The position numbers were made by a program, and so were the translations under genes. From a virus, in the IMG/VR virus record IMGVR_UViG_3300011187_000003, positions 23,726-87,725 of that record: a DNA stretch of 64,000 nt. One strand, given 5' to 3'. Under the pieces are notes generated by a model, which did not search any database, was not told where the DNA came from, and saw only the letters and a program-made list of their open reading frames with translations. Below are positions 2,601 to 25,959 of the stretch, piece after piece. Each line of letters begins with the position of its first letter. The stretch's first letter is position 1.

Positions 2601-3995
2601 CTATTGTTCTACAAATAATAATCTTTCTTGGTCTAAATTCATCTCAATACATTCTCCATTGTTAGTGAAGTCATGCTCACTACCATGTCTATTTTTCTTG
2701 ATTACAAAAGCATAGTCACCCATCAATAAGTGTTCTTCTCTCTCTTCATTAGAGATTTTCTTTAAGATAGCATAAGCTGTTGAATGTCTCTCAATATCCT
2801 GTGATTCTGCAGAGAACATTTCCTGATATGTCTTTGCCTGACTAGCTGTTGCCACCCAAATACCTAGTGGGTCAGCGATATCTTCCTTCATTCTATTAAC
2901 AACATCACCTAACCAGTGGCGTAAAGCTTCATCACTGCCACCAAAGGCAGAACTACGCTTAACATAGTCCCAAACAAATCCTTGAATATCATATTTATTT
3001 TTGTAGTATCTAGCTCTACGAACAAGTTTATCTGCTGAGTATCCTCTAATTAAGTCTATGTAGATGGGGGATTCTTCAAGGGTTTTTACTGCATCAAGTA
3101 CTCTCTTCCTCATCTTTTCATTACCCTTCTTGTTATAAATACCATTCTCTATGTAGTTTGGTGGTAGGCCAGCTATCTCAGCTACCATTCTGTCTCTCTG
3201 CTCATGTTTAGGCATCTCATTAGCTCCCCAATATACTGGTTTACCATCATCAACACCAACTTTTTTAACTATATTCTTCAGCATGATTGATTTACCCACA
3301 CCAGTTTGAGCATTGATTATAAGGACACTACCATCTCTTAATAGCCCCTGTGAAAAGGTATCAACTTGTGGGTATGGTGAAGGCTGACCAGTAAATCCTT
3401 TATTGTTGACTTCTCTGCTTAGGTACTCATCCCTCATACCTTCAGCAATATGCTCTGCTTGGTGAGTTTGATTAGTATACTCATCAGTAACCTCAAGTGT
3501 TGTCCTCTCAGCAAGGCCTAATACTTCCTCTAAGCTCATCTTTTGATAATCCTGAATAAATTTATCCTTGAGATTATCATTCCTTGCTATCAAATCATTA
3601 ATAGCAACATCTTTCTGAAGGTCTTTTATGTACATATCTATACTACTAGGGTCAACATCAAGCTTCTTAAGTGTTCTTATGTATTTTGATATTGCCTGTT
3701 CAGCATTATCATTCTTGTCACCTAACTCTTCCTCAAAAATTTCTCTAACATTATGGAATTTATCTATATAATTAATAAGTGTTACTTCATCAAACCTACC
3801 ATGCTCCATATCTTTCTTTCTTGCTATGTAGTCCAGTATCTCAAACAATGACCTGTTGTACTCAACATCAGTGTACTTGTCAAAATCCTCTTCAGTTAAT
3901 TCAACCTGATAAATAAGTGGTGGATTCTGAGCAATACAAGCTAAGATGCTTTGTTCAATAATCTTAGTGTCTATTATCTCATCCTGCACAAACAT
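2601..3995 (-). CDS. replicative DNA helicase, DnaB family
   Basis: Hexameric 5'-3' helicase of the phage replisome. The first 100 residues resemble the DnaB N-terminal collar domain (IIEQSILACIAQNP). The RecA-like ATPase domain has Walker A NAQTGVGKS near residue 228 and a Walker B-like hydrophobic strand ending in D (IQGFVWDYVKRS) near residue 345. 464 residues is the usual DnaB length. The ATG at 3995 lies immediately after AGGAGGG; the GTG at 3989 has better spacing and may be the true start. It is in the same operon as the primase. Confidence 0.88.
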   Translation of the reverse strand: MFVQDEIIDTKIIEQSILACIAQNPPLIYQVELTEEDFDKYTDVEYNRSLFEILDYIARKKDMEHGRFDEVTLINYIDKFHNVREIFEEELGDKNDNAEQAISKYIRTLKKLDVDPSSIDMYIKDLQKDVAINDLIARNDNLKDKFIQDYQKMSLEEVLGLAERTTLEVTDEYTNQTHQAEHIAEGMRDEYLSREVNNKGFTGQPSPYPQVDTFSQGLLRDGSVLIINAQTGVGKSIMLKNIVKKVGVDDGKPVYWGANEMPKHEQRDRMVAEIAGLPPNYIENGIYNKKGNEKMRKRVLDAVKTLEESPIYIDLIRGYSADKLVRRARYYKNKYDIQGFVWDYVKRSSAFGGSDEALRHWLGDVVNRMKEDIADPLGIWVATASQAKTYQEMFSAESQDIERHSTAYAILKKISNEEREEHLLMGDYAFVIKKNRHGSEHDFTNNGECIEMNLDQERLLFVEQ

Positions 3996-4003
3996 CCCTC
4001 CTA

Positions 4004-4435
4004 TTAAACTGTTTTTCCTTTTGAATATAAGATATATGATGTATTAATTGTAAAAAGGAGCATCAGATTTCTGTTAGATAATTTTCCAGAACCATCTAAG
4101 TGAAGCTCACAAAAACTATTTATCATAGAGGCATACTTCTTTTTGTCGAGCCTTCTTAGTTTATATGTTTTTTTAAACTGCAAGAAAAGCTCTATAATTT
4201 CTTGCTCATATAACCCTCTTTCTAGTAATAGAGAAATAATATCTTTATTGAAGCTTTGACATGTTGCAGTTATGTCTATATCAGCCTTAAGATACAAGTC
4301 TAAAAGAGTTTTATCTAAGCCTCTTACAACACTTGCTACCATCTCACTAGAGGTAGTTCTGTGTCCTAGCTCACCAAAATAACCTCTTAAAATATCAATA
4401 TAGTCATGTGTTAAGCTTCTTGTAGTGGTCATCAT
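4004..4435 (-). CDS. hypothetical helical protein
   Basis: 143-residue protein, largely alpha-helical by eye, with no motif I recognise. It overlaps the stop of the upstream transglycosylase gene by 4 bp (ATGA-type coupling) and ends 9 bp before the helicase start, so it is translated as part of this operon. A helicase loader or accessory role is possible from position alone. Confidence 0.7.
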   Translation of the reverse strand: MMTTTRSLTHDYIDILRGYFGELGHRTTSSEMVASVVRGLDKTLLDLYLKADIDITATCQSFNKDIISLLLERGLYEQEIIELFLQFKKTYKLRRLDKKKYASMINSFCELHLDGSGKLSNRNLMLLFTINTSYILYSKGKTV

Positions 4436-5070
4436 ATTTTACTCCCCTTCCTGTTTTGTTCCATTAATTTTGAGTGATAAGTAATTCTTCCCAGCACTTC
4501 CATAACATATTTTCTCCATCTCTCTTTATTTTCATCAACTGAAGGGTTGTTATAAGACATAATTGCAGTAAATCTATCCTTCTTTTGTTGTAGCTGGTGG
4601 TAGTAATAGTACACAGCAAGCTTAGCCTGAGTATTAGTATCTTCTGCAAGTAAATCTCTGTCGTATTTCCAGCCTCTGCTGTTAGCAATTCCTTTTGCTG
4701 TATTCCACTGCATAGAGAATACACCAAATGATGTACCATTATCTATATAATTATTATAATTGACAAAACCAGTCTCCAACTCAACAATTGCAAAAATATC
4801 CTTAGCAACTCTCTTATAATGAACTTCAGGGTACATATAATTTAGTTTTTTGCTCCACTCAATAATAGAATCAACCCTTTTTTGTGCCTGTTTAAATGTC
4901 ATAGCATCAGCTGTATCCAATTCAGGCCTATTTCTTACCCACTTATCATTGATAAACATTGCCCTCTTAATTCCAAACTCTCTAAAAGAAGCTGTTTGAC
5001 CCACAACTGTAAATATCAACACAAGCAATGCTAATAGGGCTATAGTTAACGCTTCCTGTTTAGATAACAT
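4432..5070 (-). CDS. membrane-anchored lytic transglycosylase
   Basis: Predicted to cleave peptidoglycan glycan strands. Residues 7-25 form one transmembrane segment or uncleaved signal anchor (ALTIALLALLVLIFTVVG). The rest fits a lysozyme-like SLT domain: catalytic Glu in VELETGFVNY (near residue 99), SFGVFSMQ (the GLMQ-type motif) and AIMSYNNPS (the AYN-type motif). Its setting is odd: it lies inside the replication operon, far from tail and lysis genes. It could remodel the wall, act in superinfection exclusion, or belong to a conjugation-like function. The family call is reasonably firm; the role is open. Confidence 0.8.
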   Translation of the reverse strand: MLSKQEALTIALLALLVLIFTVVGQTASFREFGIKRAMFINDKWVRNRPELDTADAMTFKQAQKRVDSIIEWSKKLNYMYPEVHYKRVAKDIFAIVELETGFVNYNNYIDNGTSFGVFSMQWNTAKGIANSRGWKYDRDLLAEDTNTQAKLAVYYYYHQLQQKKDRFTAIMSYNNPSVDENKERWRKYVMEVLGRITYHSKLMEQNRKGSKI

Positions 5071-5093
5071 AATATACCTCCTTATAATTTAAA

Positions 5094-5127
5094 GGGAGAG
5101 AAAGGCCTGTTTTGGCCTTCCTATCCC
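5094..5127 (-). terminator. GGCC hairpin between operon segments
   Basis: AAGGCC (5102-5107), loop TGTTTT, GGCCTT (5114-5119), flanked by outer GGGA/TCCC complementarity. No long U-run follows on the minus strand, so it may be a weak terminator or RNA-processing stem. Confidence 0.5.
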
Positions 5128-5136
5128 AATATGTAC

Positions 5137-6096
5137 TTACAGTAATTCTTCATATTCCTCTGACTCAATAATACCTTGGTAACTATCAATTTCCTCAATA
5201 GTTAACTCATTAACTTTTTCTTTGCCAAACTTCTTCTTCAGAATCTTTCTGCTTTCAGCTGGCTTAATGCCTGCATCTTTGATTTTAGAGATTAACTCTT
5301 TTTTCTTAGGCTTTTTGTCTTGCCTTTTGTAATAATCATCAATCATCTGCTGAGTTACACCTTGTTCTTCATTGTTTCTCTCAATGGCCTCATCAAAGGC
5401 TTCTTTTAGCTCATCAAAATCTAGGTCAATCTTATCTGTATTGAAGTCTAAGCGTGACCCTGCTTCCTGATGATTGGTAGGTCTAACAAAGAGCTTTCTC
5501 TGCCCTTCTTCATCAAAGTCAGCAAGTAAGAAGATGTCAGTCATATTCTTAAGGAACTTACCTGCTTTGCCACCTACATCTAAGTCAATCTTATTTTTCT
5601 CCCCACCTAAACCATCTTTCTCAGTGGTGGTTTTCATATGTGCTACAAAGATTACACCAAACCCATTTGATAAGAGTTTTCTAATGATACCTTCAACTTC
5701 ATCATTGACGAACCCCCAACCCTTACCAAAATCTCCTATATCAGCTGGAGAATCAACATTATATTTCTTTTTGATATAATCCTTAGCCAAATCATATGGC
5801 ACGCCAAATGGGTCGAATATGGCTGTTTTAAAGCCATATCCATCATTCTCAATAAACTCATTCACACCAGCCTTAAAAACTACCCATGCATGTTTATTTA
5901 ACTCATTTGATTTCTTCATTACATCAAACTCATGTGTTAATAGTCCTGATGTAGATGGTTCAAACTTAAAGTGGTATGGTTTTGGAAAGTCATTTGCTAG
6001 TGTAGTCTTACCAACCTTATTTCTACCTGTTATTACCCAAATATACTCTTCCATCTTTTGCTTTGGGATGGAAGGTTCTAAATCAAGAATACCCAT
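5137..6096 (-). CDS. Sak4-like RecA-fold recombinase / AAA_24 ATPase
   Basis: 319-residue P-loop ATPase of the type found in many phage recombination modules (Sak4, 'phage nucleotide-binding protein'). Walker A is GRNKVGKTTL (residues 24-33), a Walker B-like strand is TAIFDPFG, and VIFVAHMK matches the sensor-like strand of RecA-fold proteins. The C-terminal 70 residues are lysine-rich and then acidic, probably a flexible interaction tail. Sak4 proteins work with phage single-strand binding proteins, and an SSB-like gene lies directly upstream, which supports the call. Confidence 0.8.
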   Translation of the reverse strand: MGILDLEPSIPKQKMEEYIWVITGRNKVGKTTLANDFPKPYHFKFEPSTSGLLTHEFDVMKKSNELNKHAWVVFKAGVNEFIENDGYGFKTAIFDPFGVPYDLAKDYIKKKYNVDSPADIGDFGKGWGFVNDEVEGIIRKLLSNGFGVIFVAHMKTTTEKDGLGGEKNKIDLDVGGKAGKFLKNMTDIFLLADFDEEGQRKLFVRPTNHQEAGSRLDFNTDKIDLDFDELKEAFDEAIERNNEEQGVTQQMIDDYYKRQDKKPKKKELISKIKDAGIKPAESRKILKKKFGKEKVNELTIEEIDSYQGIIESEEYEELL

Positions 6097-6161
6097 ATAT
6101 TTATCACTCCTATTTTTTTAATTTATAATATTATTTTACTACTCTTTGTTATACTTTACAT

Positions 6162-7082
6162 TTAATAGCCAGATTCAAAATTGTTATCAAAGCCATCTTC
6201 AAACCCACCTAACTCATCAACATCAGCCTGCTCATGCACTGTACCAATAAAGCCAACTTCAAGCTCATTTAAGTTACCTTGAACGATATCATACTTGTTA
6301 GTGATTACCTCAGTGTTGATATCACAGCCAACTGTAATATTATCATACTGCTTAATCTTATCATCAAACTGTTCAGCGATATCACCATATGCTACTAAGT
6401 GGAATAGCTCTAAGTTATATAATCCATCCTTAGCCTCATCTAGTTTCTCAGCTAGCATGTAAAGCTTCTTGATATCAGTGGTATCCTCAATCTTTTCTTT
6501 TAACCTAATGATTTCTGCATCAACATCATCATTTGTATCTATGTAGTATTCAACTTCATTAAGTAAGACTTCCTGTCTAGTCATATCATCATTGTTCTCA
6601 CCTTTTTCAACATCAAACTGGTCAAAAATACCAAGTGTGATTTCAGCTTTAGGGGTTTTTTCTTCAACTTCCTGACCTCTAACTTCTTTAACAAGGTTAA
6701 TCTCTTTAGTTACTACATCTCCTGAAAGTCTTGCAGTAGCCATTTCTTCAGAAGTTTCAGAGACCTTATCAATACCATATACTTTATTTTTTCTCTTGCT
6801 AATCATTCTATTAGCAATTCTTCTCTGCCAATCTCCATTGAACTTACTTTCATCTAGCTCTCCACTGATGCGATACTTATCACCATCTACAAGGCTCTTA
6901 AGGGCATCCTTTACAATACTAAGTGGTTTACCATTATCTTTCTTTTCCCACATCTGCACAGTAATATTATTACCATCTGCATTGAGTCTAACTTTGCCAA
7001 GTGGGGTACCAATATCTGTATTGTACCCAATATCCTCAACTGTTCCTACTACCTTTGCACTATTCCCAAATCTACTATCCAT
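6162..7082 (-). CDS. single-stranded DNA-binding protein candidate
   Basis: 306-residue protein with an OB-fold-like N-terminal region (alternating strands over residues 8-95, including VQMWEKKDNGK) and a very acidic C-terminal tail ending in DGFDNNFESGY. An acidic tail is the hallmark of SSB proteins, which use it to recruit replisome partners. It lies directly upstream of the Sak4-like gene, the usual SSB neighbour. I could not identify a named SSB family, so the call rests on fold pattern, tail and context. Confidence 0.6.
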   Translation of the reverse strand: MDSRFGNSAKVVGTVEDIGYNTDIGTPLGKVRLNADGNNITVQMWEKKDNGKPLSIVKDALKSLVDGDKYRISGELDESKFNGDWQRRIANRMISKRKNKVYGIDKVSETSEEMATARLSGDVVTKEINLVKEVRGQEVEEKTPKAEITLGIFDQFDVEKGENNDDMTRQEVLLNEVEYYIDTNDDVDAEIIRLKEKIEDTTDIKKLYMLAEKLDEAKDGLYNLELFHLVAYGDIAEQFDDKIKQYDNITVGCDINTEVITNKYDIVQGNLNELEVGFIGTVHEQADVDELGGFEDGFDNNFESGY

Positions 7083-7143
7083 TATTATCCTCTCCTTTAA
7101 ATAATTTTATTAAAAGACTTATGTACAAGAACATTTATGTTAA

Positions 7144-7169
7144 TCAGAGGGGAGGGTAGACCCCTCTGA
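7144..7169 (-). terminator. 9-bp GC-rich hairpin
   Basis: TCAGAGGGG (7144-7152), loop of 8, CCCCTCTGA (7161-7169), a perfect stem in the untranslated space between the 56-residue gene and the SSB-like gene. No U-run follows on the minus strand; probably an RNA processing or stability stem. Confidence 0.5.
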
Positions 7170-7173
7170 AGGC

Positions 7174-7344
7174 TTAACTGAGAACCTCAATTGCTTCTAA
7201 TAACTTCTCTTCTTCCTTATCTTCTATGTCCCCCCCAAATTTTCTCAGGGTCATTATACAAAACTCTTTGCATTGCTCAATTACTTTTGCTCCTAGTGAC
7301 CTATTTTCTGATAGGCAATTACATTTATCATCTTCTTTTTCCAC
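7174..7344 (-). CDS. 56-residue cysteine-containing protein
   Basis: Small gene starting at GTG 7344 with AAGGAG ten bases upstream and ending at TAA 7174. It has four cysteines in the first half (CNC near the N-terminus, then C and C) and an acidic helical C-terminus. It contains a run of seven G on the coding strand, which could be prone to slippage. It is the first gene behind the promoter at 7417-7445. Function unknown. Confidence 0.6.
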   Translation of the reverse strand: MEKEDDKCNCLSENRSLGAKVIEQCKEFCIMTLRKFGGDIEDKEEEKLLEAIEVLS

Positions 7345-7486: not shown

Positions 7487-8527
7487 TTATTTTTGGTTTA
7501 ATTTCCTTGCTCTGAGATGAGGGAACAGCTGTTTTTTACCTTCCACTCTGCTTTTTGCAAAGTCATCCAGTAATGTAAAGAAGTATCCAATATTAGCTCC
7601 TTTTTTAGCTGTCATCTCCAGTGCTTCAAAAACTAAGGTATTGTCAAAGTAATATCCAAAAGCTATCTCCATCTGTTTCAATGTTGGTAGCTGGCTAAAT
7701 GTTTTATCAAACTCTTTTATAAATTCTACACCTAGCTCCTCAGAAATATATTTAGGCAAGTTATCCACAAGCTGTTTAATTTTAATTTCAAACTCCCCTA
7801 GTTCTTTTTCTTTTTCTTTAATTCTTGTTAATAAAGAACTATGGTTCTTCTTTGTGGGGATGTTTTGACACAGTGCGAATACATCCCCCTGCGAATCTCC
7901 ACATGGGGAACTATTATCCCCCTGCGAGGATTCCTGTTGTGACAGTGTTCCATCCACTTTTTCATCTTTTTGGTCACATGGGGAACTATTATCCCCCTGT
8001 GATTTTGCCCCCTGTGGATAACTTTCAGGTGGAGACTCAATTTTACCCTGTGGATAACTTTCTTCTACATCATCTTCAGGGAATAAAGAGTAAAAAGAAC
8101 TGGTAAAATTACCTAACTTTTTTTCAAGAATTTCATCCCTTGCTTTTTTGTTAACATCCTCTCCCTTTTTATTCCTTTTAACAGGGAGTCTTTCATATGC
8201 TAATTCTTTAGTCCATAGTTTTCTTTTGGTATAGATGTAACCTTTCTTCACCAAAAATGGGATTCCTTTCTTTTTTATATAGCCTTTACTATACCCTGTT
8301 TCTTTTGCAATGGTTTTTCTACTGACCCAGCAAGTGCCATCTGCATCCATATGAAGGGCAAGGCAGATAAATACTGAGAGAGAGCAACCCTTAAGCTCAT
8401 TCAACTGTTGTTCTCTAAACAATGTATTAAGCTTAATATAAACATTCCTTGAGAACTCTTTATCTTGATTTAACCTGCCCTCTCTACCAAAGCTAACTGT
8501 AATATCTTTTTTCTCTGTCACTGGCAT
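7487..8527 (-). CDS. phage replisome organiser / replication initiator
   Basis: 346-residue protein with an N-terminal winged helix of the HTH_36 type (VFICLALHMDADGTCWVSRK, then KTIAKETGYSKGYIKKK). A low-complexity hydrophilic linker occupies the middle, with SQGDNSSPC twice and SYPQG twice, and a second helical domain follows at the C-terminus. Initiators of this type bind iterons that often lie inside their own gene, and the DNA encoding the linker here holds two exact 25-bp repeats and two DnaA boxes. Start chosen at ATG 8527, following AAGGAAGCAGGTG. It is expressed from the promoter at 8570-8598. Confidence 0.72.
   Translation of the reverse strand: MPVTEKKDITVSFGREGRLNQDKEFSRNVYIKLNTLFREQQLNELKGCSLSVFICLALHMDADGTCWVSRKTIAKETGYSKGYIKKKGIPFLVKKGYIYTKRKLWTKELAYERLPVKRNKKGEDVNKKARDEILEKKLGNFTSSFYSLFPEDDVEESYPQGKIESPPESYPQGAKSQGDNSSPCDQKDEKVDGTLSQQESSQGDNSSPCGDSQGDVFALCQNIPTKKNHSSLLTRIKEKEKELGEFEIKIKQLVDNLPKYISEELGVEFIKEFDKTFSQLPTLKQMEIAFGYYFDNTLVFEALEMTAKKGANIGYFFTLLDDFAKSRVEGKKQLFPHLRARKLNQK
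7870..8060. repeat. intragenic iterons and DnaA boxes (origin candidate)
   Basis: Inside the replisome-organiser gene. A 25-bp direct repeat occurs at 7900-7924 and 7975-7999 (75 bp apart), each containing GGGG-AACTATTAT-CCCC. CCCCCTG followed by CGA, TGA or TGG recurs five times between 7885 and 8057. Two DnaA boxes, TGTGGATAA, lie at 8013-8021 and 8049-8057. GC content is clearly higher than in the flanks. Confidence 0.6.
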
Positions 8528-8569
8528 CACCTGCTTCCTTTTTTTAGCATCTCACTTGTTCTACATATT

Positions 8570-9390: not shown

Positions 9391-9795
9391 ATGGCTATCC
9401 AAGAGAAGGTAGACCAAAGAAAATTAAATAAAGAGGAATTTGCCAAGCTAGTAGGTGAAAAGATTAAGTACTACAGAAATGAAAGTGGATTAACACTAAG
9501 AGGAATTGCTAGAAGAACTGAGTATACTGCAGGATATATAGGATTATTAGAAAAAGGTGAGGCAGTACCTAACAGTTATGTATTAGTCCAGCTAGCAGAT
9601 GTAATGGGTATTCCTATTAATTACCTCTTAGGACAGGATGATATCAACCATGAAAAAAATAAGCTCCAAGACCCTGTATTAACTAATCCTAAAAATGAAG
9701 AGTATATTAATGTTATGAAGTACTTAATCTCTAAAGGAATTTCTCCTGAAAAAATCAAGCAAGCCATTGAGTTTGTAGAGGGAATGAATAACTAA
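9391..9795 (+). CDS. XRE-family (Cro/CI-like) transcriptional repressor
   Basis: 134-residue regulator with an N-terminal helix-turn-helix over residues 14-70 (LTLRGIARRTEYTAGYIGLL, then EKGEAVPNSYVLVQLADVM), followed by a short helical C-terminal tail and no peptidase domain. It is the only plus-strand gene among minus-strand genes and is divergent from the sigma-like gene, the arrangement of a lysogeny switch. The ribosome binding site is AAAAGGAGATGATT. Lack of a LexA-type peptidase domain means induction is not by self-cleavage. Confidence 0.85.
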   Translation: MAIQEKVDQRKLNKEEFAKLVGEKIKYYRNESGLTLRGIARRTEYTAGYIGLLEKGEAVPNSYVLVQLADVMGIPINYLLGQDDINHEKNKLQDPVLTNPKNEEYINVMKYLISKGISPEKIKQAIEFVEGMNN

Positions 9796-9889: not shown

Positions 9890-11469
9890 TATAAAACTCT
9901 TTTTATGTAAACCTGAAGGTTTTTGTATCCATTCCATTCATTGATTCCTAGAGTACCAATAATTCCACAATTAAGCTGATGAAATTTATCTGACATTCCA
10001 AAACCTATAGCATCAATACCATCTATACTTGCTGATAAATGCTCTCCTCTGCTTCCTACTAACTCTTTACTACCTATTTCTCCAGTGATTTCAAACTTTG
10101 GAGTAGGATTACCTCTACCAGTAGGATTAAATACTTTTAAGTCATTAATTAAACTTAAGTTAATATCATCAGTTTCAATCTCCATATCAGCTTGCACCTT
10201 TTTGTAGCTTATATCTTTAGTATAATCAAGCATGTATTCTTTAAAGTCATCAATATTATCTTGCCTAATGGATAGGCCACAAGCGAACTTATGCCCTCCA
10301 AAGTTTTCTAAGTATGTATCAGCTGTTTTAAGTGATTCATATATGTTTAATGGTCTTACTGAACGACCACTACCTTTACAATTACCATCCTCATCAGGCT
10401 CACCAATCACAATAACAGGTAGATTTAATTTTTCCTTGATATCTCCTGCTACTAGTCCAACTACACCAGCTGGAATGTCCTCTTGAACGATTATAATATT
10501 ATCATGTTCATTTGTTTTCTTAAGCGCACTCTTAAGCGCTCTCTTAGATATCTCTTTCCTTCTCTCATTAATATTTCTAAGCTCTCTTGCAGTAGAACTA
10601 ACATCTAGCTGGCCTGATAAATACTCAAAACCTTTTTGATTCTCACTCAATCTACCTTGAGCATTAATCAGTGGAGCTATTTGGTAACCAATCTTACCTG
10701 CAGTTATATCTCCTATCTTTTTATTCTGTACATTAGCCAGCTCTCTAAGTGGCTCCATAGGATTACTGTTAAATTTCTTTAGCCCTTCAGCAACTATAGC
10801 TCTGTTGTCGTCTCTTAGAGGCACCACATCAGCCACTGTAGCAAATGCTACAAGGTCTAATACCTCATAAAACTCTTCCTTGAGCAGGTGCCTTGCAACC
10901 ATCCATGCTATACCTGCACCACAGTACTCAGTAAACTCTAAGTCACCACTCTCTACCTTTAAATCAACAAACTCAGTACCAATTGATTCTTCAGCTTCAT
11001 GGTGGTCTATTACTATCACATCAATACCTTCTTCTTTTAATTGTTTTATGTATTCCCAATCACTAATACCACAGTCAACTGTGATAACTAAATCTTTACC
11101 TTGTTCTAATATGTAATCAACTACCCTCTGAGAAAGGCCATAACCATCCTTAAACCTACTGCTAATCATACCCTCTACATTATCTGCCCCTAACTTTTCA
11201 AGCATCTTATAGAGGATTGTCGCACCTGATGTACCATCTACATCATAATCACCATAGACAAGAATCTGGCTTTGGTATTCTAGATGCTGAGAAATTATCG
11301 CCTCTATTCTATCAATATTTGGTATATTATTAGTGTCCTGTAGGTTATCTATGCTAGGGTGAAGAAAATTTCTAAGCTCAGAATAAGAAGAAGCAAGCCC
11401 TCTTTTTTCTAAGAGCTTACTTATTATTTCATCAAACCCAAAATCATCTAAGACTTCTTGTTCTTTCAT
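9889..11469 (-). CDS. recJ: RecJ-like single-strand DNA 5'-3' exonuclease
   Basis: 526-residue DHH/DHHA1 phosphoesterase. DHH-family metal ligands are visible: YGDYDVDGTSG near residue 80, VITVDCGIS near 133, IVIDHHE near 155. The DHHA1 nucleic-acid-binding region includes GSGRSVRPLNIY and ENFGGHKFACGLSI, and a RecJ OB-like end closes the protein. RecJ acts in recombination and end processing. Length is close to bacterial RecJ, so the gene seems intact. It is uncommon, though known, for a phage to carry full recJ; it sits beside the integrase-like gene. Confidence 0.88.
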   Translation of the reverse strand: MKEQEVLDDFGFDEIISKLLEKRGLASSYSELRNFLHPSIDNLQDTNNIPNIDRIEAIISQHLEYQSQILVYGDYDVDGTSGATILYKMLEKLGADNVEGMISSRFKDGYGLSQRVVDYILEQGKDLVITVDCGISDWEYIKQLKEEGIDVIVIDHHEAEESIGTEFVDLKVESGDLEFTEYCGAGIAWMVARHLLKEEFYEVLDLVAFATVADVVPLRDDNRAIVAEGLKKFNSNPMEPLRELANVQNKKIGDITAGKIGYQIAPLINAQGRLSENQKGFEYLSGQLDVSSTARELRNINERRKEISKRALKSALKKTNEHDNIIIVQEDIPAGVVGLVAGDIKEKLNLPVIVIGEPDEDGNCKGSGRSVRPLNIYESLKTADTYLENFGGHKFACGLSIRQDNIDDFKEYMLDYTKDISYKKVQADMEIETDDINLSLINDLKVFNPTGRGNPTPKFEITGEIGSKELVGSRGEHLSASIDGIDAIGFGMSDKFHQLNCGIIGTLGINEWNGYKNLQVYIKRVL

Positions 11470-11521
11470 TTTACTAATACCATCCCTTCCTTATTTGCAA
11501 AAATCCAATATTTGAAAATAA

Positions 11522-11782
11522 CTAAATAATCAAAGCGTTTTCTACTCTCTCCATATCTTCACCTAAAATGGTAACAATACTCATTGTCTTATTGTTCATT
11601 GTAAAAATTAATGAACCAATACCACTCTTAAAACATAGATAGCCATCAGTAAACCTATTTAACTTTATAGTTTTATATTTATCATGGAGAAGATAGGCCA
11701 GCTGGTCAGTAGATATATCTCTGTCATCCAGCCTATCCTCAGCATGGTCAGTTAACTTAACATGAATATCATTAATCTGCAT
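11522..11782 (-). CDS. small HAxxRxxxR protein (DUF4258 / RelE-fold-like)
   Basis: 86-residue protein with LTDHAEDRLDDRDI near the N-terminus and two hydrophobic strands later (GSLIFTMNNKTMSIVTIL). This H-A-x-x-R ... strand pattern resembles DUF4258 and BrnT-type toxin-fold proteins. A second protein of the same plan is encoded at 21900-22175. No antitoxin-like partner is evident next to it. The family assignment is tentative. Confidence 0.5.
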   Translation of the reverse strand: MQINDIHVKLTDHAEDRLDDRDISTDQLAYLLHDKYKTIKLNRFTDGYLCFKSGIGSLIFTMNNKTMSIVTILGEDMERVENALII

Positions 11783-11797
11783 TGCGATTACCTCCTT

Positions 11798-12685
11798 CTA
11801 AAAACTTAACGAATTAACCTGCTTCTTCTTCTTCTTACTATCAACATGAGTATAAATCTGTGTAGTAGCAAGGTCAGAATGTCCTAGTATCTCCTGTAAA
11901 GCCTTGATATCTTTAGTCTTTTTATAGAACAGAGTACTGAAAGTATGTCTAAGCTTATGTGGGGTAATTCTCTTATTAATATTAGCTTGATTAACATAAG
12001 CTTTAACCAGCCTCTGTACAGTCCTCTTACTCACAGCATTTCCCCTATTAGACAAGAATACAGGCTCTTTATCTTTCTTGTAGCAGGTACCTCTTTCATT
12101 ATTAATGTAATCAACCAAGTATTCCTTAGCCTTATCATGTAGTGGGACAACTCTGTCCTTATTGCCCTTACCTTTTTCAACATCAATAACACCATTACTA
12201 AAGTCTATGTTATCAAGGTCTAAACTACATACCTCACTTACTCTCAATCCTGAGAAGGTCATTAAATAAACAATGGCTTTGTTCCTCTTAGGAGACCTGC
12301 TGTCATCACCATCAACAGCCTTAAAGAATTGCTTAAGCTCATGCTCATCCATATACACTGGCTTCTTATTGCTTCTCTCTTTAACTTTTTCTAAACCTGT
12401 AGCTGGAGAAGTTAGAATTTTGTCCTTATCTTCAAGGTAGCTGTAGTATTTTTTAATAGAGTACATCTTCCTGTTTCTTGTGGATGATGCATTGTTTTGA
12501 TTAACATAATTTAAAAACTCATTAATCTCCTTTGCAGAATAGCTCTCGTATTCTGCATCACTGCTGTTATGAAAGTTTATAAACTGCTTAATATCATTAG
12601 AATAATTCTCTGCAGTCAACTCACTATGTCCCCTCTCAGTAATAAGATAATCTTTGAAATTCTGAATAGTCTTAGAAAATTTCAT
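11798..12685 (-). CDS. tyrosine recombinase, Xer/integrase type
   Basis: 295-residue recombinase with an N-terminal SAM-like core-binding domain and a catalytic domain with the full set R (SGLRVSEV, near 150), K (KGKGNKDRVVPL), HxxR (HKLRHTF), H (GHSDLATTQ) and Tyr (IYTH, near 277). Length and motifs match XerC/XerD more than large phage integrases that have an arm-binding domain. It could integrate the phage into the chromosome or resolve dimers of an extrachromosomal prophage. Promoter at 12718-12746. No attachment site could be identified from this sequence alone. Confidence 0.85.
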   Translation of the reverse strand: MKFSKTIQNFKDYLITERGHSELTAENYSNDIKQFINFHNSSDAEYESYSAKEINEFLNYVNQNNASSTRNRKMYSIKKYYSYLEDKDKILTSPATGLEKVKERSNKKPVYMDEHELKQFFKAVDGDDSRSPKRNKAIVYLMTFSGLRVSEVCSLDLDNIDFSNGVIDVEKGKGNKDRVVPLHDKAKEYLVDYINNERGTCYKKDKEPVFLSNRGNAVSKRTVQRLVKAYVNQANINKRITPHKLRHTFSTLFYKKTKDIKALQEILGHSDLATTQIYTHVDSKKKKKQVNSLSF

Positions 12686-20882: not shown

Positions 20883-20911
20883 AGTATAGCAAACTTAATA
20901 ACACATGTCAA
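20883..20911 (-). promoter_or_regulatory. class I early promoter for candidate sRNA
   Basis: Minus strand TTGACA (20911-20906), 17-bp spacer, TATACT (20888-20883), then ATTATTAGTAATC. Confidence 0.7.
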
Positions 20912-21240
20912 TGATTAATTATAAATTATTACTATTACTATTGTTATTATTATTATTAAGTATATTATTAATAAGGTTATTAGAAGTATTATTAAGTATA
21001 TTGTTATTAATGTTATTAAGTATATTATTAATAAGGTTATTAGAAGTATTATTAAGTATATATTATTTATTACTATTGTTATTATTATTATTAAGTATAT
21101 TGTTAATACTTTTTTGTTACTATTTTTATTATCTTATTAGGAATATGTTTTAGGAATCTTATTAGTAGTTCTTAACTTCAAGTACAAGTTCAAATTCTAT
21201 TAATTAAAGCAAGTTAAAACTTAGTTTTGTTAGTGGTAAA
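20912..21240. repeat. 60-bp tandem repeat in AT-rich non-coding centre
   Basis: 20941-21000 and 21001-21060 are near-identical 60-bp units differing at a few bases near position 10; partial units extend to about 21115 (TTATTAAGTATATTRTTA). Composition is almost only A and T with TTA-rich runs. A plus-strand frame through it would encode only leucine, isoleucine and serine repeats, so coding is unlikely. To about 21240 I see nothing else. Confidence 0.75.
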
Positions 21241-21387: not shown

Positions 21388-21440
21388 ACGCGCACATACA
21401 CACACACGCGCAGGCGCGCACACACGCACACACACGCGCG
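21388..21440. other. alternating purine-pyrimidine tract (Z-DNA candidate)
   Basis: 21388-21412 (25 bp) and 21414-21440 (27 bp) are strictly alternating purine-pyrimidine, made of CG and CA steps, interrupted by one extra G. It is by far the most GC-rich CG-step-rich segment in this AT-rich region and begins directly downstream of a consensus minus-strand promoter. Confidence 0.75.
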
Positions 21441-21469: not shown

Positions 21470-21503
21470 GTAATATATCAAATTCTTTATATTTTTAATT
21501 GTT

Positions 21504-21523
21504 TGAATTGTGTACACAATTCA
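21504..21523. other. perfect 20-bp palindrome
   Basis: TGAATTGTGTACACAATTCA, perfectly self-complementary, directly beside paired DnaA boxes. Likely a dimeric protein binding site. Confidence 0.7.
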
Positions 21524-21525
21524 CC

Positions 21526-21545
21526 TGTGGATAACTTTATCCACA
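21526..21545. other. inverted pair of DnaA boxes
   Basis: TGTGGATAA (21526-21534) and TTATCCACA (21537-21545), two consensus DnaA boxes head to head, 2 bp apart, forming an imperfect 20-bp palindrome. Confidence 0.65.
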
Positions 21546-21655: not shown

Positions 21656-21823
21656 GCAGGTAGTCTTTTAAGATATACTATAATCTTACAAAAATCAGGC
21701 TCCTTTTTTTAACATAGAAGTCCCAAGAAAAAGATGGCCATATTTAATTATCAATGTTCAAATCTTCAAGGTTCAATAATACAATAACACAAAAAAATAA
21801 TATCGTCAAATTTAACTTTTCCC

Positions 21824-21852
21824 TTGACAAAGTATATCAAGGCTGATATAGT
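21824..21852 (+). promoter_or_regulatory. class I cassette promoter
   Basis: TTGACA (21824-21829), 17-bp spacer AAGTATATCAAGGCTGA, TATAGT (21847-21852), then ATTAAGTAGTAAGACAG. First of seven near-identical rightward promoters. Confidence 0.8.
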
Positions 21853-21899
21853 ATTAAGTAGTAAGACAGAAAAACAAAAAATTAAAGGAGCTGAGGCAA

Positions 21900-22175
21900 A
21901 TGTTAGATATTAAAATTTCAGGACATGCAAGCAGTCAGGCCAGCGACAGACATTTAAAAAAGCAGTCATTATTAAATATTATATTAGAGCTTAAGCAGGC
22001 AGATTTTAACGAATTTATAAATTCTAAATATATATATGCTTGCTTAAGAGACAGGCAGAAAAAAGAGTCTGTAGTTATTGCAGTTAATAACTCTACAATT
22101 ACTATTGTAACAGTAATTAACAAAGTTATGCGCTGTAATAACTACCCTGATACGATAATAATAAATGTTAAATAA
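21900..22175 (+). CDS. small HAxxR-type protein (paralogue of 11522-11782 plan)
   Basis: 91-residue protein with SGHASSQASDRHLKK near the N-terminus and hydrophobic strands ESVVIAVNNSTITIVTVI. This H-A-x3-x-R pattern plus two strands resembles DUF4258/RelE-fold proteins and mirrors the 86-residue protein at 11522. Ribosome binding site AAAGGAGCTGAGGCAA. First gene of the rightward array. No antitoxin partner recognised. Confidence 0.6.
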   Translation: MLDIKISGHASSQASDRHLKKQSLLNIILELKQADFNEFINSKYIYACLRDRQKKESVVIAVNNSTITIVTVINKVMRCNNYPDTIIINVK

Positions 22176-22178
22176 AAT

Positions 22179-22207
22179 TTGACAAAGTATAATGAATCTG
22201 ATAACAT
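22179..22207 (+). promoter_or_regulatory. class I cassette promoter
   Basis: TTGACA (22179-22184), 17-bp spacer AAGTATAATGAATCTGA, TAACAT (22202-22207), then GTTAAATAGTGAAGATG. Confidence 0.75.
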
Positions 22208-22238
22208 GTTAAATAGTGAAGATGAAAAACATTAAATA

Positions 22239-22281
22239 TTAGCTTGCTCAAAGGCCTGAGAAGGCCTGAGAAGCAGGCTAA
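22239..22281 (+). promoter_or_regulatory. leader hairpin just before ribosome binding site
   Basis: TTAGCTTGCT (22239-22248) pairs with AGCAGGCTAA (22272-22281), 10 bp including one G-U, enclosing a duplicated AAGGCCTGAG. The stem ends 5 nt before AAGGAGCTGAT, so it could affect initiation. Confidence 0.5.
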
Positions 22282-22299
22282 AAAAAGGAGCTGATATTA

Positions 22300-22548
22300 A
22301 TGGATAAAAAATTAAAAGATGTTGAGAAGCTGGCAGATGTTGAAGAGGCAGGCACTAAAGTAGTAAGTAATTGTTTTAGTATCACAGCAATTGTTGATGG
22401 TTTAACAGAATCAGTTTTTTATCAGTATAATGGAGCTTTAACAGGTGATATCAAAAAAGCTAAAATTAAATATAATTCATTTACTGGAGCGCCTTATTTT
22501 ATAGATGATAGACAAATAAAACATGAATTATGTAAATTTATTAGCTAA
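22300..22548 (+). CDS. hypothetical cassette protein
   Basis: 82-residue protein, beta-rich C-terminal half (FSITAIVDGLTESVFYQYNG). Ribosome binding site AAAAAGGAGCTGATATTA. No recognised family; its placement among individually promoted small genes suggests an early host-interaction role, which is inference. Confidence 0.65.
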   Translation: MDKKLKDVEKLADVEEAGTKVVSNCFSITAIVDGLTESVFYQYNGALTGDIKKAKIKYNSFTGAPYFIDDRQIKHELCKFIS

Positions 22549-22566
22549 AAAAAGGAGCTGATATTA

Positions 22567-22641
22567 ATGAATAAAAAGAAGCGCTTGCAGATTGATTTTA
22601 TTGCAGAGGATGCAGAAAATTTATTAAATAATTCTAATTAA
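22567..22641 (+). CDS. 24-residue micro-protein
   Basis: MNKKKRLQIDFIAEDAENLL plus NNSN, starting after AAAAAGGAGCTGATATTA, the same 18-nt ribosome binding context as the gene at 22300, 18 bp after its stop. Duplicated initiation signal argues it is translated. Basic N-terminus, amphipathic helix. Confidence 0.45.
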   Translation: MNKKKRLQIDFIAEDAENLLNNSN

Positions 22642-22644
22642 TTC

Positions 22645-22673
22645 TTGACAAAGTATAATAGAGCTGATATAGT
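22645..22673 (+). promoter_or_regulatory. class I cassette promoter
   Basis: TTGACA (22645-22650), spacer AAGTATAATAGAGCTGA, TATAGT (22668-22673), then ATTAAGTAGTAAGACAG; nearly identical to 21824-21852 including leader. Confidence 0.8.
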
Positions 22674-22720
22674 ATTAAGTAGTAAGACAGAAAAACAAAA
22701 AATTAAAGGAGCTGGTTAAG

Positions 22721-23050
22721 ATGATTATTACTTTTAACATTCCAAAGCAGGACAACGACAAGAATAAATTTGACGACAGCAAGCTACAAGGTTATATCAA
22801 GCAGGTATGTAAAGTGACTGGTGGCACTACCACCTATCAGGCCAAAGGTCAGTATATAATGGAATCTGGCAAGATGACAAGCGATAATAATTATATGGTT
22901 AAAACAAGCACTGATTCAAGGCAGGACTTGCAAGAAGTTAAAAGAATAATTGCAGGCATGGCCAAAGATTTAAGTCAAGAATCAATCTATTTTGAAGTGC
23001 AGCAGGCAGATGTTGAGTTTATAACTGCTGACATGAATCAGGCAGTATAG
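22721..23050 (+). CDS. hypothetical cassette protein
   Basis: 109-residue protein starting MIITFNIPKQDNDKNKFDDS. Two strand-rich parts (YQAKGQYIMESGKM, ESIYFEVQQADVEFI) around a helix suggest a compact alpha/beta domain. No recognised family. Ribosome binding site AATTAAAGGAGCTGGTTAAG; ends shortly before a GGCC hairpin. Confidence 0.65.
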   Translation: MIITFNIPKQDNDKNKFDDSKLQGYIKQVCKVTGGTTTYQAKGQYIMESGKMTSDNNYMVKTSTDSRQDLQEVKRIIAGMAKDLSQESIYFEVQQADVEFITADMNQAV

Positions 23051-23063
23051 TCAGATCAAAAAA

Positions 23064-23085
23064 CAGGCCTTGTAAAAGAGGCCTG
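23064..23085. terminator. GGCC hairpin
   Basis: CAGGCC (23064-23069), loop TTGTAAAAGA, GGCCTG (23080-23085). A-run upstream gives a U-run on the minus strand, so it may stop leftward transcription as well. Confidence 0.55.
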
Positions 23086-23109
23086 ATAAAAAATAATTCT
23101 AATTATTAT

Positions 23110-23138
23110 TTGACAAAGTTTAATGCATCTGATATAGT
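23110..23138 (+). promoter_or_regulatory. class I cassette promoter
   Basis: TTGACA (23110-23115), spacer AAGTTTAATGCATCTGA, TATAGT (23133-23138), then GTTAAGTAGTGAAGATG. Confidence 0.8.
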
Positions 23139-23184
23139 GTTAAGTAGTGAAGATGAAAACAAAAAATTAAAGGAGATGATAATT

Positions 23185-23463
23185 ATGAAAACAAACGACA
23201 AAAAAATTGAATCTATTGAAGGCCTGCAGGATGCAATTAAGGACTTGAAGAATCAGGACATTTATTTGATTGAAAATGTGGAGCTTGAAGCAGGCGACAT
23301 CTATCAAGTTTTAAAAGATGTTGACATTGCAGATCAAAGATATATGGAGACTTTAAAAGATACAGTAGAGTTTTACGCAAGACCTGAATGGGACAGAGAT
23401 AAAAAAATTTATCCTGCAATCTGGATTAATCCAACATCTGAAAAGTTAGTATTTGAGTATTAA
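23185..23463 (+). CDS. hypothetical acidic cassette protein
   Basis: 92-residue protein from ATG 23185 after AAAGGAGATGATAATT; a longer in-frame reading from 23110 would start in the promoter and is rejected. Strongly acidic over residues 8-45, then FYARPEWDRDKKIYPAIWIN. No family recognised. Confidence 0.65.
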   Translation: MKTNDKKIESIEGLQDAIKDLKNQDIYLIENVELEAGDIYQVLKDVDIADQRYMETLKDTVEFYARPEWDRDKKIYPAIWINPTSEKLVFEY

Positions 23464-23475
23464 AGGTTAAAAAAT

Positions 23476-23502
23476 ATCAGGTCTGCAAAAATCAGGCCTG
23501 AT
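23476..23502. terminator. GGCC-type hairpin
   Basis: ATCAGGTCT (23476-23484) pairs with AGGCCTGAT (23494-23502), one G-U; A-rich on both sides. Confidence 0.5.
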
Positions 23503-23540
23503 AAAAATAAAATAAAATTTAAAATAATTCTTGATATTAC

Positions 23541-23569
23541 TTGACAAAGTATAATAAACTTGTTATACT
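23541..23569 (+). promoter_or_regulatory. class I cassette promoter
   Basis: TTGACA (23541-23546), spacer AAGTATAATAAACTTGT, TATACT (23564-23569), then ATAGATAGTGAAGATG. Confidence 0.8.
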
Positions 23570-23616
23570 ATAGATAGTGAAGATGAAAACAACACAAAAA
23601 AAGGAGCTGGTTTTTG

Positions 23617-23880
23617 ATGATTAAAAGAAAAGAATTAATTAAACTTGTTGAGGAGAATAAAAGAGAAAAAAGACAAGAAAAGTGGATGATAATAGAGAAG
23701 TGCGAAGCACTTACAGAAAAGAGAAAAAGAGGCAATTTAATAGCTGAAAGTATCATTGAAATTCTAAAGCAAGGTAATGACTTTTATGCGAGTGAAGTTA
23801 ATAACTCAAAAAATAATTTGAGATTCGTTTTGAATATATTGGATAACAAAGATTATATAATTGATATTGACAAAAAATAA
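23617..23880 (+). CDS. hypothetical basic cassette protein
   Basis: 87-residue, lysine/arginine-rich helical protein (MIKRKELIKLVEENKREKRQ) with an acidic hydrophobic end. The start at 23617 follows AAGGAGCTGGTTTTTG. Possibly nucleic-acid or RNA polymerase binding on charge alone; no family recognised. Confidence 0.6.
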   Translation: MIKRKELIKLVEENKREKRQEKWMIIEKCEALTEKRKRGNLIAESIIEILKQGNDFYASEVNNSKNNLRFVLNILDNKDYIIDIDKK

Positions 23881-23882
23881 TT

Positions 23883-23920
23883 ATAATTATCAGGCCTTGT
23901 AAAAGAGGCCTGATAATTAT
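23883..23920. terminator. 14-bp perfect hairpin with GGCC core
   Basis: ATAATTATCAGGCC (23883-23896), loop TTGTAAAAGA, GGCCTGATAATTAT (23907-23920). Same loop as the hairpin at 23064-23085. Confidence 0.6.
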
Positions 23921-23959
23921 TAAATAACTTAGATCAAAACCAATTAGGAGCTGATGCAA

Positions 23960-24235
23960 ATGGAGAAAAAAATTAAAAAGATGCAAGAATTTTTTGAAGG
24001 CAGAGAAGTTAAGGTAACAGGCTGGAGTGAAGACACCACTAAAGAGATGGTGATGGAAGTAGAGAACAATAAAGAAACGATAACTTTAAAAGATTCTAAC
24101 AGTCAAATTTTTTTATTAGTTAGCAAAAAAGCACTTGACAGAATTGATATTTTAGAACACTTAAGAGAAGGCAAAAAAGCAAGCATTCTAATCTATGGTG
24201 ATGGTATCACAGTTTATGTTCAAACAATAAAATAA
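23960..24235 (+). CDS. hypothetical cassette protein
   Basis: 91-residue protein starting at the second ATG (23960), nine bases after GGAG; the first ATG is inside the CTGATGC element. Sequence resembles a small OB- or SH3-like beta protein (REVKVTGWSEDTTKEMVMEV). The next cassette protein at 25113 has a similar start (KKI/DKIAKFFEEREGKE against KKIKKMQEFFEGREVK) and may be a distant paralogue. Confidence 0.6.
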   Translation: MEKKIKKMQEFFEGREVKVTGWSEDTTKEMVMEVENNKETITLKDSNSQIFLLVSKKALDRIDILEHLREGKKASILIYGDGITVYVQTIK

Positions 24236-24241
24236 TCAAAT

Positions 24242-24268
24242 AGCAAGGCCTGAAAAAAAGGCCTTGCT
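24242..24268 (+). terminator. AGGCCT terminator-like hairpin
   Basis: AGCAAGGCCT (24242-24251), loop GAAAAAA, AGGCCTTGCT (24259-24268), followed by TCTATCTT. Confidence 0.6.
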
Positions 24269-24318
24269 TCTATCTTAAAGAATCAGATCAAAGTTAATAA
24301 GTTAAAATAATATTAGTC

Positions 24319-24670
24319 AATTCGCTTCAAGCTTAAGAGCTTGGAGCTTTTTTGTATTTATACCATGTAACTATATTATTAAAAGCTATATAGAAGCGCT
24401 AAGAAGCTCATTAAGCACTTTTAAGCGAATCATGGTATTATGAGGCCTTGAATAAATAAAAGGCCTTAAATAACTATTTAAATCTTTATAAGGTGCTATA
24501 TAATTATAATATACATATTATATCAATAATAGCATACTATCATATATTAGAACCTTATAAGAGGCCATGAGAAGCGCTTTAAATAGCTTGCAGTTATATA
24601 TACATATTAATAGGCCTGCAGTAACTAAAAGCTTTATATGGAGCTTTTAGCGCTTTTTGAGACCTGCAGC
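24319..24670 (+). ncRNA. large structured non-coding RNA candidate
   Basis: No gene fits in 24269-24900 before the short frame at 24901. The region is packed with inverted repeats: ATTCGCTT (24320-24327) with AAGCGAAT (24423-24430) and ATACCATG (24360-24367) with CATGGTAT (24431-24438), which cross as a pseudoknot; hairpin CAAGCT/AGCTTG (24328-24343); AGGCCTT/AAGGCCT (24443-24466); ATAAGGT/ACCTTAT (24488-24558) enclosing TGCTAT/ATAGCA; CTAAAAGCT/AGCTTTTAG (24625-24650) followed by CGCTTTTT. Strand is inferred from neighbours. Confidence 0.5.
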
Positions 24671-24721
24671 ACTATTAAGTATAGTACTACTAAAACTATT
24701 TGAATTAATTTAATATATAGC

Positions 24722-24750
24722 TTGACAAAGTATAACTAAAGCCTTATAAT
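24722..24750 (+). promoter_or_regulatory. class I cassette promoter with dead cassette
   Basis: TTGACA (24722-24727), spacer AAGTATAACTAAAGCCT, TATAAT (24745-24750), then GGTACATAGTGAGACAGG. Downstream AAAAAAGAGTGCTGG looks like a decayed AAAGGAGCTGG and no gene follows before the next promoter. Confidence 0.7.
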
Positions 24751-24817
24751 GGTACATAGTGAGACAGGGAAGAAAAAAGAGTGCTGGCAAAACTTTTTAA
24801 AAAATATCAAATAAAGC

Positions 24818-24846
24818 TTGACAAAGTATAACAAACTTGTTATTAT
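24818..24846 (+). promoter_or_regulatory. class I cassette promoter
   Basis: TTGACA (24818-24823), spacer AAGTATAACAAACTTGT, TATTAT (24841-24846), then GTTAAGTAGTGAGGG. Confidence 0.75.
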
Positions 24847-24900
24847 GTTAAGTAGTGAGGGACACAAAAGAACAACAAATTTTAAAAGGAGATGATAATT

Positions 24901-25112: not shown

Positions 25113-25385
25113 ATGAATAATATTGATAAAATAGCAAAGTTTTTTGAGGAAAGAGAAGGCAAAGAATTTATAGAATTAGGATATAATCAAGGTAAAAGAT
25201 TAATAGATTTTAGCTTTAAATTAGATAAAATTAATCGTAAAAGAGAAACAAGAATAAAATTAATATTAAATAATAATGAGCCACAAAGGTTTGTAGAATC
25301 AAATATTAAAGAACTATATAGTGGTGATTATTTGCTAAAAATTGAGCTTATAAATGGTCTGATTCTTAGAATTATTAAAAAATAA
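25113..25385 (+). CDS. hypothetical basic cassette protein
   Basis: 90-residue protein with helical N-terminus (NIDKIAKFFEEREGKEFIEL) and basic strands later. Ribosome binding site TTAAAAGGAGCTGATAGAAG. It is the last cassette before the DnaA-box array. Possible distant paralogue of the 23960 product. Confidence 0.6.
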   Translation: MNNIDKIAKFFEEREGKEFIELGYNQGKRLIDFSFKLDKINRKRETRIKLILNNNEPQRFVESNIKELYSGDYLLKIELINGLILRIIKK

Positions 25386-25394
25386 AACTAAAAA

Positions 25395-25418
25395 GCCTGA
25401 GTTATCCACAAGCTCAGG
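25395..25418 (+). terminator. hairpin with DnaA box in its loop
   Basis: CCTGAG (25396-25401), then TTATCCACAAG, then CTCAGG (25413-25418) followed by TTT. The first DnaA box of the array forms the loop. Confidence 0.45.
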
Positions 25419-25555
25419 TTTAAGTTATCCACATTTGAGAGAGAGTTATCCACAATATTAAGTTAGTTATCCACAGGAAAGAGAGAATTATCCACAAGTT
25501 ATCCACAAAACAAATGATAAATTATAAATAAATGATAAATAATAAAATTTATATG
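25402..25555. other. replication origin candidate: six phased DnaA boxes plus AT-rich segment
   Basis: Exact TTATCCACA boxes at 25402, 25425, 25446, 25467, 25488 and 25499 (start positions), all in one orientation, spaced 23, 21, 21, 21 and 11 bp, that is, on one face of the helix. They are followed by an AT-only-like stretch (25508-25555) with repeated GATAAAT, a natural unwinding element. Confidence 0.8.
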
Positions 25556-25930
25556 AATTAAAAAACGAATTTCAACACTCCCCTGTTACTATAAAATTTT
25601 TTTCTGATTCTGGCCTGATTGTTTTTGTCGTATAATACAGATTATAAGACAAAACATCCACGAAGCCTGCCATGACAGGAATGGTGAGGGGTGTCGATTC
25701 AAGATAGAAAACCAAAAAAAAGAAATAGAAGGAAGAATAGGTTTTTGCACTCCCCTACCAACTCCTCTAATATCTATCCCTATAAGACTCTAGATACCAA
25801 CGACTCTAATTTGGCACCCTATACCTTTTTAATTAGTTAACTTTAATATTTGCCCCTATTGAGTCCTAATCACTAACCTCTCTAAGGTATATCCCTACCC
25901 CAACCTATATTAGGGGGTGTCAAATAATGC
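25556..25930. other. non-coding region with recurrent CCCT motifs
   Basis: No gene. CACTCCCCT occurs at about 25575 and 25749; CCCTAT or CCCTAC recurs around 25788, 25832, 25853 and 25892. A small hairpin CCTG/CAGG lies at 25668-25681 and a TATAAT at 25630-25635 lacks a good -35. It may be part of the origin or a centromere-like site. Confidence 0.45.
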
Positions 25931-25959
25931 TTGACATATAATATTATATTATGTATAAT
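25931..25959 (+). promoter_or_regulatory. promoter, hybrid class
   Basis: TTGACA (25931-25936), 17-bp spacer, TATAAT (25954-25959), then AATAATAGAAAATTAAAGGAGG. Confidence 0.75.

Follow-up and report, generated by a model that had tools for sequence, protein, structure and literature searches.

A six-box DnaA array beside an AT-rich element in a tailed phage genome as a candidate oriC-type origin

The array and its genome

The window analysed here is a stretch of 64,000 nucleotides within a record of 87,725 bases. The two ends of the record share a direct repeat of 123 bp, on account of which it is probably complete. It belongs to a tailed phage, with genes for a terminase, a tape measure protein, tail proteins and an endolysin, and the leftward genes of its left arm encode DnaG-like and DnaB-like proteins, an AAA ATPase, a sigma-like factor, a Xer-like recombinase and an initiator-like protein. 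The features used below are the following, in coordinates of the window.

2601..3995, - strand: DnaB-like helicase gene
7487..8530, - strand: gene for an O-like replication initiator, holding three DnaA boxes and 28-bp repeats, a putative phage-initiator origin
9391..9795, + strand: HTH_3 repressor-like gene, opposite in direction to its left-arm neighbours
11798..12685, - strand: Xer-like tyrosine recombinase, with a possible role in dimer resolution or integration
20905..21140: stretch of lowest DNA stability in the window, with AT-rich 12-bp repeats
21526..21545: two perfect DnaA boxes, inverted to each other, within the divergent gap that has the GC-skew minimum; a rival of the array or a partner to it
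25386..25950: gap that holds the array, with no ORF of 60 aa or more, ending at the consensus promoter 25931-25959
25396..25418, + strand: inverted repeat CCTGAG/CTCAGG with the first DnaA box in its loop, read from the sequence
25402..25507, + strand: six perfect DnaA boxes (TTATCCACA) forming an array with steps of 23, 21, 21, 21 and 11 bp
25488..25507, + strand: proximal boxes in tandem, 2 bp apart, adjoining the AT element
25508..25565, + strand: AT-rich element of low stability, a putative unwinding element, beginning with two 18-bp repeats

The six boxes are exact matches, start at 25402, 25425, 25446, 25467, 25488 and 25499 and lie on the + strand throughout, which confirms the orientation and spacings given in the preliminary description. 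On the whole, 12 exact boxes are found on both strands of the window, against 1.23 expected from dinucleotide shuffles, and these are all the exact boxes of the 87.7-kb record. Across 100 Markov-1 sequences of 64 kb, more than one box per strand within 110 bp is met in 0 cases. At 10.5 bp per turn the phases of the boxes are 0, 2, 2, 2, 2 and 2.5 bp, a phasing with P ~0.004 against random gaps of 9-39 bp. Boxes 2-6 are located on one face of the DNA and box 1 is rotated by about 70 degrees, so the former statement that all boxes face the same side holds for the last five and fails for the first. The nearly pure AT segment described behind the boxes is found again, with an AT content of 92% over the first 50 bp 3' of the last box. 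Here the tandem 18-bp repeats AAAcAAATGATAAATtAT and AAAtAAATGATAAATaAT occupy 25508-25543, and the element starting at 25508 ranks among the three 60-bp segments of lowest stability in the window. Of the features of an oriC-type origin, the array has an above-chance box cluster, an adjoining AT-rich element of low stability and a tandem pair facing that element. DnaA-trio repeats (3'-GAT-5') are missing within ~16 nt of the array boxes, and by the same test the cellular oriC set described below has no trio excess either; the missing trio weakens the case for a BUS-type oriC, not for an origin-like working. As for the rest of the gap, the CCTGAG/CTCAGG repeat is possibly the terminator of the upstream ORF at 25113-25385, and a terminator scan did not detect it. 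No significant RNA element is given by Rfam or folding in the C-rich stretch 25560-25930, and the promoter at 25931 is a perfect TTGACA-17-TATAAT.

The phage was earlier supposed to have its own initiator, and the O-like gene agrees with this through matches that are weak but consistent (phrog_1032, 2.7e-5; the O-like phrog_391, 1.3e-4), its HTH_36 match falling slightly under the cut-off. The DnaA boxes inside the gene are at 7761 (+), 8013 (-) and 8049 (-); in lambda, the origin is situated within the initiator gene O. In addition, a ParM gene is identified at 11046-11933 of the record (Pfam, PHROGs, PDB). The small gene beside it has no ParR match, no centromere repeats were found next to parM, and AlphaFold models of this ParR candidate and of the O-like initiator were too low in quality for use. 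ParM is present in lytic SPO1-type phages too, so the gene does not prove a plasmid stage. Together, the ParM, Xer-like and repressor-like genes would be compatible with one. Relatives sought with terminase, ParM and helicase queries provide no copy of the array to show its conservation. The sole relative so obtained is a 22-kb fragment with an identical terminase and without a box pair; the ParM query against plasmids and the helicase query against genomes return no close relative. In the distant phages Slash, MaeS, phi36, BboS-125 and CampHawk, no two boxes on one strand lie within 39 bp of each other.

The cumulative GC skew has its minimum at ~21.5 kb (21-22 kb), 3.9 kb from the array, where the direction of the genes switches. 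The preliminary description had pointed to a skew inflection at the array as a check; it is seen at ~21.5 kb and not at 25.4 kb, and is uninformative, as gene direction changes there. Third-position skew is 0.05 in the rightward HTH gene and about -0.2 in the leftward genes of the left arm. Because skew tracks gene direction, transcription and replication are inseparable by skew here, and GC skew was rejected as a proof of the origin. The inverted box pair in this gap is followed by two GAT trios and stands ~390 bp away from the least stable stretch. About 90 bp to its left runs an alternating purine-pyrimidine tract (CA/CG repeats, 21388-21440), and an 18-bp palindrome, GAATTGTGTACACAATTC, is placed between the tract and the pair at 21503-21520. 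Further to the right, 21800-24900 contains six or more strong promoters that are nearly identical (TTGACAAAGTATAAT...AAGTAGTGA), mostly ahead of a small ORF, and is likely an early region with a common operator-like motif.

Phased boxes in cellular, viral and other replicons

We searched 84,980 cellular genomes for a layout of steps 21 and 20-22 followed by a tandem pair. The layout is found in 33 stretches, which are not independent of one another since many of them are from one family, Competibacteraceae. Among the 59 flanking ORFs scanned there are 23 DnaA and 14 DnaN proteins, and with such neighbours most of the 33 stretches are oriC. Their 3' AT excess has a mean of 0.20 and a median of 0.22, whereas for the nine viral arrays that have this layout it is ~0 (P 0.0001 against the cellular 0.20). 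By its 3' AT flank, the window array falls with oriC, apart from the other viral arrays. With chromosomal oriC it shares perfect boxes that all point the same way, a spacing of two helix turns, a terminal tandem pair (11 bp) and the AT element on the 3' side; it differs in having neither dnaA nor dnaN adjacent, in having no recognisable DnaA-trio, and in sitting within a phage genome that has an initiator-like gene of its own. It has been reported that E. coli DnaA favours box pairs 2-3 bp apart (PMC11317965), and that in the basal unwinding system of Bacillus subtilis boxes by the melting region are usual and most often tandem (PMC8287927). The pair at 25488/25499 supports the origin reading, since its 2-bp gap is the form preferred by E. 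coli DnaA (PMC11317965).

Below we report the arrays of other viruses. When IMG/VR was scanned for sets of three boxes separated by 0-30 bp, at least 119 stretches were obtained, and the box steps in viral arrays peak at 11-12, 21-22 and ~33 bp. When related loci are grouped, the 11-12 bp step dominates and the phasing of longer steps is modest (P 0.014), so that the phasing across the viral set is partly due to shared descent. The arrays tend to be intergenic: 153 of 223 are free of ORF overlap, while ORFs make up 74% of the loci, and divergent gaps hold 45 of them versus 12 for convergent gaps. The neighbouring genes are mixed, with terminases the commonest, followed by RusA and replication initiators. 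Taken together, the viral arrays show neither an AT-rich flank nor a clear excess of DnaA-trios, and for this reason most of them need not be origins. The window array resembles them in its perfect, phased and mostly intergenic boxes. The difference lies in the flank: its 3' AT excess of 0.26 is reached by one of 224 viral arrays, the other 223 having no 3' flank as AT-rich. Among individual loci, L102 and L105 have seven boxes spaced exactly 21 bp, and L099 has steps of 21, 11, 21 and 11 with a 3' flank of 90% AT. Such arrays had been called typical of plasmids and phage-plasmids, a view that the survey does not support: they are frequent in viral contigs, and among the 43 viral records that bear an array and reach 25 kb or more, which may be fragments, ParM is found in 0/43 and ParA in 0/43. 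The array as a phage-plasmid mark was accordingly rejected; the phage may be a phage-plasmid, but the array itself lends this no support. The literature searched, with partial coverage, contains no description of phased viral DnaA-box arrays as a class. In about 30 IMG/VR loci a family of ~130-aa proteins is encoded beside the DnaA-box arrays (for example L009:9383-9772), with members mostly ~50% identical to the first one, which itself has no Pfam or PHROGs match.

Comparable layouts occur in well-studied and in very small replicons. In phage P1, oriR has DnaA-box arrays, one of them upstream of a DUE, and oriL is inside repL (PMC4980987; PMC9948254). The likeness to P1 is in two candidate origins, one within an initiator gene and one being a box array beside an AT element; the difference is that our array has no adjacent rep gene or initiator iterons, the O-like gene being 17 kb off. 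This comparison concerns the layout only. Mutation of two DnaA sites in P1 repL had no significant effect (PMC9948254), and DnaA boxes near a phage origin can therefore be idle. Of the boxes in the E. coli datA locus, two are consensus and four have one mismatch; the locus requires an IHF site, and its box cluster is able to titrate DnaA (PMC5835720). Like the phage array, datA is a DnaA-box cluster outside oriC, strong DnaA binding being its feature; unlike datA, the phage array consists of six perfect boxes followed by an AT-rich element. In the 6.5-kb plasmid NZ_CP038232 of Formicincola oecophyllae (L249/L251), nine perfect boxes spaced 22/23 bp have a 3' flank rich in AT (0.89) and stand immediately ahead of a rep gene, and the microvirus PQ006815 (L250), a 5.3-kb ssDNA virus, has six perfect boxes at 21-23 bp with a 3' flank of 0.84 AT. 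These two differ from the phage in being tiny replicons, and in the plasmid the array adjoins the rep gene; the blastn match covers little beyond the boxes.

A putative host-DnaA origin and its alternatives

Overall, the host DnaA-dependent origin put forward in the preliminary description is still the best reading, since the layout is mostly oriC in cellular genomes and the AT-rich 3' flank is common to both. We consider it rather probable that 25402-25565 is an oriC-type origin that uses host DnaA, alongside a second origin in the O-like gene. We infer DnaA binding, unwinding and initiation, and also the existence of a second origin and the stage at which the array is used, as follows. Host DnaA would bind the six boxes, and its assembly, largely on one face, would be guided toward the 3' tandem pair 25488/25499; it would then open the AT-rich repeats (25508-25565), and a DnaB-type helicase, of the host or of the phage, could be loaded there. 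The second origin, inside the O-like initiator gene, would work beside the array, and by analogy with P1 it is likely that the phage has two origins. The likeliest use of the array would be copying driven by the host before or without the phage initiator, namely in the first rounds after entry or in a plasmid-like stage. A division of labour, with the host-driven origin serving these and the phage origin serving lytic growth, seems likely because the O-like initiator gene holds an origin-like stretch. If the array does work as an origin, the phage could be replicated by the host initiator alone, which would account for a phage with its own initiator persisting as a plasmid or being copied at once after entry. 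Against the array as an origin stand the O-like gene, whose internal boxes and repeats could suffice for one, and the other box pair with a less stable AT region close to the skew minimum.

The main rival is the titration of DnaA, in which the high-affinity array would remove host DnaA, delaying host chromosome initiation or limiting DnaA-ATP early in infection, and the AT segment would be incidental. For the class of viral phased arrays, which are common, mostly intergenic and without an AT flank, a binding role is more suitable than an origin, and datA offers a precedent for titration by a box cluster (PMC5835720). Directly before the window array there is also a series of small ORFs under strong promoters, apparently an early region. 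Its AT-rich 3' flank, however, separates it from the viral class and likens it to oriC, and a single six-box copy would take little DnaA before the phage replicates. Titration is thus a better account of the viral class in general than of this array, for which we think it unlikely.

The working origin may also lie elsewhere, in the O-like gene at 7.5-8.5 kb or in the divergent gap at 20.6-21.6 kb, with the array as an accessory DnaA-binding site. The boxes and repeats within the initiator gene speak for this, as do the skew minimum and the lowest stability near 21 kb and the inverted box pair followed by its GAT trios. But the minimum need not mark an origin where skew follows gene direction, and the 21-kb pair is far smaller than a six-box array and apart from the least stable stretch; we regard such a relocation as quite improbable. 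Still less credit is given to a DnaA-controlled regulatory site that would link expression of the rightward genes to the host cell cycle through the promoter at 25931, a reading we hold to be very improbable. Six boxes and an AT element exceed the needs of a DnaA-regulated promoter, and this promoter is more than 400 bp from the last box, although the array is intergenic, the promoter is perfect in sequence and DnaA doubles as a transcription regulator (PMC11317965).

Returning to the array as an origin for host DnaA, a broader proposal can be made, which we offer as speculative and rather unlikely. A stand-alone oriC with no adjacent rep gene or iterons would suffice for copying of a phage by host DnaA beside a separate phage-initiator origin; phased arrays would be a widespread viral device, of which this one would be a rare origin-competent form and the rest would act on host DnaA. 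Viral genomes frequently carry phased DnaA-box arrays, mostly with no unwinding element, and it is now a testable question whether phages have them for removing DnaA, or in which cases they are genuine origins.

Other gene observations

Beyond the window and after the tail genes, the record has at 2680-7248 (L004:2680-7248) a gene for a protein of 496 aa that consists mostly of Cys-x3-Cys repeats (CETGCEVSCE...). Three radical-SAM proteins come after it, and the third of these has a SPASM domain. The cluster, which has a partial match in one phage record only, looks like a peptide-modification cluster in the phage tail region. The phage also has an alpha-amylase-like gene (L005:7282-8370) along with an intein-bearing ribonucleotide reductase gene (L005:3935-7045).
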